In this document: positions 18,662 through 20,826 of the stretch, piece by piece
How positions within the stretch are numbered: position 1 is the first letter of the stretch
Layout of the letters: every line of letters starts with the position of its first letter
Origin: Globodera rostochiensis
Taxonomy: Eukaryota; Nematoda; Chromadorea; Rhabditida; Heteroderidae
Direction of reading: 5' to 3'
Assembly (NCBI GenBank): GCA_018350325.1
Contig: JAEVLN010000004.1
Coordinates: 3,410,001 to 3,474,000, forward strand
Length of the DNA stretch: 64,000 nt
Notes under the pieces: model-generated
The model's input: the letters and a program-made list of their open reading frames with translations, nothing else
Told to the model about the DNA's origin: nothing
Databases searched by the model: none
Program-made: the position numbers and the translations under genes

Positions 18662-20826
18662 ATGAACCTAAAATTTGTTATCTCCGTTTTATTCGTTTAT
18701 TTCTTTGCCCATTCTACTAAGGTAACAATGTTAATGAAGATAATGGTGATGACCAAGTTTGTTTCGTATTTAGGCTAATTTTGAGGACACGCGCTGTCGA
18801 TGTACTTGCCCGAGTACAGAGTACTTCTCCTCAAAAAACAAAACTCCTGCAGAACACTACAGAAGATATTATACGAAGACCAACCTGAACTCAGCAAATT
18901 GGTTTTAATCTGATGCATAGTTTAATTTATTTTATCATTTAGCAATACTCAAGCTGTTGTGAAACAGGTGGTGTTGAATGATGTCGATGCCTCTCGCTTG
19001 GATGCCTTTTTGGCCAACTGTAACTGCAGATTCGAGTCCAGAAATTCTCTACTTTTGAAGGTATGTTCTGCTTTCATTGCTTAACAGTGGCGAGAGCCGC
19101 ATCTTGATTTTTGCAGTAATAAAATATTAGTTTTATGCAGGCCGTACCAAGGGGGGGGAGAGAGCCTCTCCCCCCTGAAATGTTTTTTGTTAAACAAAAA
19201 CAATAGGGGATGTTTTGCAAAATTAATAACCAACTCGTTAAATTTTCAAAAAAAATTTTTAGGTGGTGGTGATTTTTGTGATCTGTGTACTGCTAGGACT
19301 CGGCTCTTACATGATGTATTTGGGGTAATCTTAAAGAACATTGGTCCCGATTTTTTTTTTTGTTAATGGAGGTTTTAAGCAATTCTGAGAAGTACTCGGG
19401 GGTTATCGAGGTCGCTGATTACGAATATGACATCAGATTTGTCATATGACATCATCTAATACATGATTTCAACATCTAAGATTTTTTGAGAAAAATTTTT
19501 TTTTTCCGTTTCAACTGTTTCAGCTAGCATATTCTATCATCTTCTAACTAATATTAACATGGATATCTTTGCGTTTTGCGAACAATTCTCCTCCATTGAA
19601 CATACAATTGCTTATATGCAAAAGGATTCTCTAGAGGGTATTCGGTGGCGTAGAATCCGAATCTGATTTCCTTTTAAGCCAATATCGAACCCCGGACCTG
19701 AATTCGAACAATTGTTCCAAATAGTTTTTAGCCGACTTTATTTGCTTGTAACTTCCTTAAAAGTGGTTTTCGCGTAAATTGTTTTTCAGCTTCATGCTCA
19801 GCTCAATGAGGGGAATCGATTGGTATATGAATTGCTCGGGTTTGTTCCACTACCATAAAATCGATTTTTGAAAATTTTGAATTTTGAAAATTTGGTCGAA
19901 ATCGGGTTCCTGGTGCGGATTCGGTTGAAAAAGATGTCAGATTCGAATTCTACGCCCCCGAATACCCCTAGAAATACTTTTTTAGCGGCTTTACAAAAAA
20001 AAAATTATTTAATTTTTTTTTAAACATAGATGTTGAAATCATGTATTAGATGATGTCATATGACAAATCTGATGTCATATTCGTAATCAGCGACCTCGAT
20101 AACCCCCGAGTACTTCTCAGAATTGCTTAAAACCTCCATTAAAAAAAAAAAAATCGGGACCAATGTTCTTTAAGATTACCGTATTTGGTGGTGGTTGAGC
20201 CAATGCTCAGGCGGGAGCAGCCGTTCATCCCTTATCGACGGCACGGCGACGACGATGATGATGTTTGTTTGAATACATTCTGGTTTCAAGATCCTTCTTC
20301 TGACGTCAGTGACACGATGGTTGCGTCCGATTTGGACGAGCCAACAGTTACGGCTTTTTATTTGTCTTTTCTTCACTCATTTTTGTTACGATTCCATGGT
20401 AATCCCGAGGAATGGTATGTAGAAGGGCTTGGAAGGGAAGAGCCGTAACGAATCTGTGGGTTTCGGGAGGTGTGGGGCTGGAGGCTAACATGGTTGTTTT
20501 TGAATGGATATAAGAGACTAAGCTTTTTAGATCGTTTAACCTTAAATGGGCTCGAGAAAGATGTTTGTATTTGATTTTTGGCCCAATCTCAGATGGAGGA
20601 GAACATTTTCGCGAATCCAAGGACCTCCGGCGTCGAGGAGGCGTCGAGTGAACAGCAACGGCCAAGTGAACTCCAAATGCGATCAAAGCAGGCCAATCAG
20701 CAGCATAGCGGCGGCACAACCCTACACGAAAGAGTGCTGAACAGAGTGGCCTCGGAGCAGAGCAAGTGGAAGAATAGCGTGGAAGAACAGCGGCGGAATG
20801 TGCTCGACCATTCAGTGCTGAATTGA
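18662..20826 (+). CDS. tmem9-like: TMEM9-family lysosomal/endosomal membrane protein, coding exon interrupted by a transposon
   Basis: TMEM9 is a single-pass late endosome/lysosome protein linked to V-ATPase and CLC exchangers. Exons are 18662-18721 (signal peptide MNLKFVISVLFVYFFAHS), 18774-18901 (NFEDTRCRCTCPSTEYF, the family's Cys motif), 18943-19060 (LANCNCRFESRNSLLLK), and 19263 onward (membrane segment VVVIFVICVLLGLGSYMMYL). After the element come VVVEPMLRREQPFIPYRR to 20262, and 20593-20826 with the C-terminal TLHERVLNRV…WKNSVEEQRRNVLDHSVLN*. An 857-bp inverted-repeat element splits the codons after the membrane segment. Reading through it meets TAA at once. Splicing at sites in its ends (19324/20175) keeps frame, adding five codons, for 229 aa. 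The empty site also reads in frame. The gene is therefore either active with a new intron or broken. Confidence 0.85.
19324..20180. mobile_element. 857-bp terminal-inverted-repeat element (MITE-like) with 8-bp target duplication
   Basis: Both ends begin GGTAATCTTAAAGAACATTG, and the inverted arms stay nearly identical for about 165 bp. The element is flanked by the direct repeat GTATTTGG at 19316-19323 and 20181-20188. An 8-bp duplication fits hAT, P or Merlin-type transposases; the GG start is not the usual hAT CAG. No transposase frame lies inside, so it is non-autonomous. A second inverted-repeat element is nested in the middle. The near-identity of the arms suggests a recent insertion. 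Confidence 0.9.
19631..19972. mobile_element. nested inverted-repeat element, ends CTAGRGGTATTCGG
   Basis: The left end at 19631 reads CTAGAGGGTATTCGGTGGCG, then TAGAATCCGAATCTGA. The right end at about 19940-19972 is its inverse (TCAGATTCGAATTCTACG, then CCGAATACCCCTAG). It sits inside the larger element in TMEM9. A related left end occurs at 39577. No coding frame was seen. Confidence 0.7.

Follow-up and report, generated by a model that had tools for sequence, protein, structure and literature searches.

Transposons that enter exons and are then spliced from the pre-mRNA are known from maize (Ds and dSpm) and from Caenorhabditis elegans (Tc1), with the splice sites at or near the ends of the element. 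The Merlin superfamily of DNA transposons is defined by a transposase of the IS1016/IS1595 type, target-site duplications of 8-9 bp and inverted repeats. The origin of new introns in animals is an open question. In the introners of Aureococcus, as presented in the available parts of Gozashti et al. 2022 (PMC9860276), both splice sites lie inside the element, the target-site duplication is 8 bp, and splicing leaves 4 + 8 = 12 bp in the mRNA; the words nematode and Merlin are absent from the main text of that paper. A passage of PMC11118728 counts Merlin among the DNA transposons widespread in nematodes. No introner report for Globodera or for Merlin was found in the literature covered, a coverage outside which most subscription papers and preprints fall.

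The locus studied here belongs to Globodera rostochiensis and lies in the window, which is the whole stretch of 64,000 nucleotides of contig C34 that was analysed; searches covered a genome of 92.6 Mb. An earlier note on this DNA had described an 857-bp inverted-repeat element with a perfect 8-bp duplication that splits a conserved exon of a TMEM9 gene, and this description was exact at base level (Table 1). The 5' end of the element is GGTAATCTTAAAGAACATTGG and its 3' end is the reverse complement. The arms, which had been given as near-identical over 165 bp, are indeed near-identical, with the outer 38 nt 100% complementary and the inner 132 nt 98% (overlap 10), and their measured span is about 160 nt. 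Taking out the element and one duplication brings back the family reading of 224 aa, with a Tmemb_9 Pfam match of E 2.1e-32, and the gene is otherwise intact across its six exons. Unspliced read-through meets a stop one codon (Gly) past ...SYMMYL, confirming the immediate stop that had been claimed.

Table 1. Coordinates of the TMEM9 locus (positions of the window) and of related copies elsewhere in the genome. The slash marks a splice junction.
Feature	Position	Strand	Remark
TMEM9 exon 1 (ATG)	18662..18721	+	spliced reading
TMEM9 exon 2	18774..18901	+	spliced reading; 83% to H. trifolii TMEM9
TMEM9 exon 3	18943..19060	+	spliced reading; 86% to H. trifolii TMEM9
TMEM9 exon 4, pre-element part and first base of the element	19263..19324	+	homologues continuous across the site
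Left target-site duplication GTATTTGG	19316..19323	+	GT at 19316 is an alternative donor
Non-autonomous Merlin-family element, 857 bp	19324..20180	+	family via the 1492-bp relative
Proposed intron, 850 nt, G/GTAATC ... CTTTAAG/ATTACC	19325..20174	+	one of two workable among 715 GT-AG pairs
TMEM9 exon 5, first six bases from the element	20175..20262	+	81% to H. trifolii TMEM9
Right target-site duplication GTATTTGG	20181..20188	+	
TMEM9 exon 6 (stop TGA)	20593..20826	+	Pfam match, H. trifolii match
Transposase-bearing Merlin copies	C12:341444-342935 (1492 bp); C19:about 617912-619394		identical over 1483 bp
997-bp family copy in DP exon	L046 4000-4996, C15		8-bp duplication GGACAGTC
GGTAATCCTAAAG/GGTAATACTGCAG variant places	C8:1286573, C23:5332352, plus places on C2, C5, C34, C67		

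The TMEM9 protein of Heterodera trifolii, the top homologue (75%), gave six matches in the genome, five inside the window and a weak sixth on contig C11 (27%, two stops), and the Tmemb_9 Pfam model matched a single place, the last TMEM9 exon. As far as searched, TMEM9 appears to be a single-copy gene; a further intact copy, which the earlier note had named as evidence against its reading, was found neither with the protein nor with the model. Among 65 homologues found, 62 were aligned and 60 span the insertion site (P0055 and P0061 fall short of it), and at the protein level none of the 60 shows extra residues there. At the exon 3/4 junction the H. trifolii protein (P0001) is longer by about 15 residues (CVPFNVVPLFPSLFP), apparently an intron retained in its gene model.

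The GT at 19325-19326 and the AG at 20173-20174 on which the earlier reading depended are both present. Splicing between them would add five codons (GLPYL) in frame, and the six exons then sum to 690 nt, a multiple of three as had been stated, and encode 229 aa with a Tmemb_9 match of E 1.5e-29. When GT-AG pairs were tested with an intron of at least 41 nt, an acceptor no further than 20188 and the remaining exons fixed, full in-frame TMEM9 was obtained from two of the 715 pairs, both through acceptor 20174 (donors 19325 and 19316), and in-frame TMEM9 therefore exceeds chance. Donor 19316 lies inside the duplication and adds two codons (SYMILPYLVVV) instead of the five added with donor 19325. 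The sites were scored with a small, local matrix built on 14 introns from DP and TMEM9. By this matrix donor 19325 is weak (score 0.16, rank 31 of 48 GT), with three of the 14 known donors below it in leave-one-out, and acceptor 20174 is middling (score 3.0, rank 9 of 35 AG), with one of 14 known acceptors lower. Donor 19316 scores better than 19325 (4.41, rank 4); if TMEM9 is spliced, it is therefore perhaps 19316 that is used, giving SYMILPYL. The sequence GGGGTAATC agrees only partly with the published G. rostochiensis donor consensus, given in a passage of PMC4901422 as AAGG[T/C]AAGT.

The element has a predicted fold of -420.5 kcal/mol (z -49 against 20 shuffles), in which donor and acceptor pair with each other, both inside the stem. 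The fold as such lends no support to the suggestion that the arms bring the two sites together; sites paired in a stem could equally be hidden, and the hairpin was dropped as a splicing helper, arguing neither way.

The family was searched with a 21-nt terminus allowing up to two mismatches, which found 35 ends genome-wide, while the reversed-pattern control found 0. Nineteen fetched places together with the window make a family set of 20, 12 of them with both ends; one sister-variant place was also fetched, the listed ends C78:1040881, C5:2418548, C56:2924362, C56:2954629 and C67:1183422 stand outside the set, and further related repeats exist beyond the reach of terminus patterns. The 12 complete copies show perfect 8-bp duplications in five cases, 9-bp duplications in three and imperfect or no duplications in four. 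The 1492-bp relative on C12, with the same ends, contains an open frame matching DDE_Tnp_IS1595 (PF12762, E 1.2e-17), one of the features by which the family is assigned to Merlin; 22 matches to IS1595-type transposases were found genome-wide. An IS1595/ISXO2-like DDE transposase (in the relative), duplications of 8-9 bp and terminal inverted repeats are thus found together in this family.

The window copy retains the remnant of a transposase start (MDIFAFCEQF) in sense orientation relative to TMEM9, and its positions from ~305 to 820 match other genomic repeats at up to 96%; by its sequence it is a non-autonomous derivative of the Merlin family. It has a 100% identical counterpart of 857 bp on C4, in the reverse orientation, and the TMEM9 insertion is therefore recent. 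Identity within this pair and between the two transposase-bearing copies points to recent movement of the family as a whole.

The terminal repeat provides a donor, G/GTAATC, and when reversed at the other end an acceptor, CTTTAAG/ATTACC; with both in one inverted repeat, the element is a candidate for removal in either orientation. The G before the donor and the ATTACC after the acceptor leave seven bases, which with the 8-bp duplication make 15 nt, and hence five codons would be gained and the frame kept. Simulated insertions into random sense codons with an 8-bp duplication gave no frameshift and a stop in about 8%, whereas with a 9-bp duplication all shifted the frame. Two other AG-bearing TIR variants would shift the frame with a duplication of 8 or 9 bp, and in TIR variants without AG in the tip the tip is unusable as acceptor. 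Variants GGTAATCCTAAAG and GGTAATACTGCAG have the tip AG acceptors TTTAG/G and CTGCAG/T, and would add 16 nt when the duplication is 8 bp.

A second coding insertion was found in the gene for DP, the E2F partner, which is single copy in that both genomic Pfam DP matches fall within one gene. The DP protein of H. trifolii aligns on either side of the insertion site and lacks the inserted sequence, and the transposase remnant of this copy is opposite in orientation to that of the TMEM9 copy. Splicing at the element ends would add five codons (ITGQS) in frame. Frame-keeping is weaker evidence in DP than in TMEM9, since 19 of 995 GT-AG pairs keep the DP frame. The UniProt entry A0A914HTI4 (G. rostochiensis DP) maps onto the locus with 498/498 residues, and its first intron ends TTCTTTAAG/ATTACC, which is the acceptor of the element; AAG ends two of the ten other introns of this model. 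The intron uses an internal donor (CGA/GTACTT) and not the outer donor of the element. A0A914HTI4 lacks the conserved N-terminal coding part of DP, which lies upstream of the element and has an open frame. The protein model starts with 20 residues from the right arm of the element (L046 4866-4990, C15:72215-72339). The published model shows that a gene finder chose the acceptor of the element, and is no proof of the outer donor. A passage of PMC4901422 describes the 2016 G. rostochiensis gene set as built with RNA-seq intron hints; that A0A914HTI4 belongs to this set and that a hint covered its first intron are assumptions. With the same in-frame positions and a published acceptor, DP strengthens the core idea of the earlier note, that a transposon brings its own splice sites into a coding exon.

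The earlier note had proposed to test how many genome copies sit in coding exons; a coding location was demonstrated for two of the 20 family places, those in TMEM9 and DP, and is possible for the other 18, a count that by itself does not show an introner burst at genome scale. Open frames of 94-154 codons span the site at five places (L040, L041, L044, L052 and L053), and no Pfam match was obtained for the crossing frames of L040 and L053 or for one flank frame of L041. Of 40 places with other TIR variants, none was demonstrated in a conserved exon, most being judged on flanks of 120-150 bp; these places are partly dependent, as L059/L060 and L061/L062 have the same flanks, and L066 and L070 do too. 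An open frame was present in 15 of 22 variant flanks of one set and in the L059-L062 join, and eight variant-flank peptides were put to Pfam. With flanks this short and few of the open frames put to Pfam, coding insertions may have been missed. Two of 20 against none of 40 are too few for a coding preference over the other TIR variants. Selection on duplication length was likewise set aside: a duplication of 8 bp is found in both coding copies, but also in five of the eight cleanly duplicated copies.

Two further gene-like neighbourhoods were considered and dropped. In a VPS13-like gene on C15 (L047 3754-4325, C15:363803-364374), the end of an exon coincides exactly with a Merlin terminus (KYRPN/GGTAATC). 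The element has lost its right half there, the VPS13 matches end at profile position 329 while those of the C1 and C11 loci go on, and no VPS13 Pfam match was found downstream on C15 in six frames. The locus is probably a truncated duplicate, and was not retained as a third coding case on account of the half element and the end of the matches. On C34 (L112 88-540, C34:4299387-4299839), a 288-bp relative directly follows a stretch of coding appearance (LARARLASKA), whose resemblance to Vma22/CCDC115 reaches a Pfam E of 0.3 only. The terminus of this relative might be the 5' splice site of a Vma22/CCDC115-like gene; it was left uncounted given the E value and the lack of a frame-consistent junction by eye.

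We consider it likely that the Merlin insertion in the TMEM9 exon is spliced out as a new intron through its own ends, with the frame kept. A recently active Merlin family of G. rostochiensis has inserted into an exon of the sole TMEM9 gene, and its terminal repeat, acting as donor and in reverse as acceptor, would let the element leave the pre-mRNA in either orientation. The seven element bases and the 8-bp duplication would stay behind as 15 nt, and TMEM9 would gain an intron together with GLPYL, or two codons through the duplication donor, at the end of a membrane helix. We infer that the spliceosome would remove the element efficiently. The insertion could instead be a recent loss-of-function allele, unspliced, with its stop one codon in, and tolerated or segregating, which we regard as unlikely. 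The identical sister copy makes it too young for gene decay, donor 19325 is weak and read-through stops at once, all as such an allele would have it. Furthermore, no Globodera-named TMEM9 appeared in two homologue sets (65 and 62 homologues), several matches being nameless and protein length restricting the candidates; this absence fits a disrupted annotation and equally a disrupted gene. Against a null allele, acceptor 20174 restores full TMEM9 with two donors, and the like in-frame insertion in DP sits in a published model, which means that one such insertion, at the least, is tolerated.

The DP model also bears on a reading in which no end but the acceptor end takes part, CTTTAAG/ATTACC being joined to an internal donor or to a spliced leader to give 5'-truncated mRNAs. 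Spliced-leader trans-splicing occurs in nematodes, A0A914HTI4 begins in the right arm and joins its internal donor to the element acceptor, and in an acceptor-only DP a start codon lying about 20 residues further on would leave the DNA-binding and dimerisation domains in place. However, the stretch before the element, coding for the N-terminal part of DP, has an open frame and can be aligned to H. trifolii, and in TMEM9 acceptor-only use would be null, its product lacking most of the protein; we hold this reading to be quite improbable. Removal of the whole element through its own ends is the reading we prefer for TMEM9.

If that removal takes place, a transposon could enter coding exons nearly without harm by virtue of the 7 + 8 = 15 arithmetic, which holds in both orientations. 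The chances seem evenly balanced that an active nematode Merlin serves as a living introner system and has a transposase-bearing relative in the genome, a symmetric repeat and insertions that are frame-neutral with an 8-bp duplication. The transposase-bearing relative, identical recent copies, a single-copy target and fixed sites occur in one genome with public RNA data, and intron birth is thereby directly testable. In addition, the DP case indicates that Merlin insertions in exons corrupt gene annotation.

Compared with introners in general, two unrelated genes, TMEM9 and DP, are hit in coding exons, frame-compatible sites lie at the element ends with poor to middling strength, and orthologues lack the sequence at protein level (none of 60 for TMEM9, and H. 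trifolii DP). The family is thus introner-like, and its membership among introners is conditional on splicing; no earlier report was found for this transposon superfamily or for this group of animals. Exon insertions of Ds/dSpm and Tc1 use variable cryptic sites and often give imprecise products, whereas here the arithmetic gives one fixed in-frame pair. As in the Merlin superfamily at large, the longer relative carries an IS1595 domain and the copies show 8-9 bp duplications and inverted repeats, but here donor and acceptor are both contained in the terminal repeat. The Aureococcus introners, in the available parts of PMC9860276, are likewise DNA-transposon-like, have an 8-bp duplication and add whole codons (here 7 + 8 = 15 bp). 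They account for many introns, with efficient splicing reported in the introduction of that paper, whereas splicing here is a prediction and coding insertions stand at two of 20 places; furthermore, the elements described here are 857 and 997 bp long, have arms of about 160 bp, belong to Merlin and reside in a plant-parasitic nematode.
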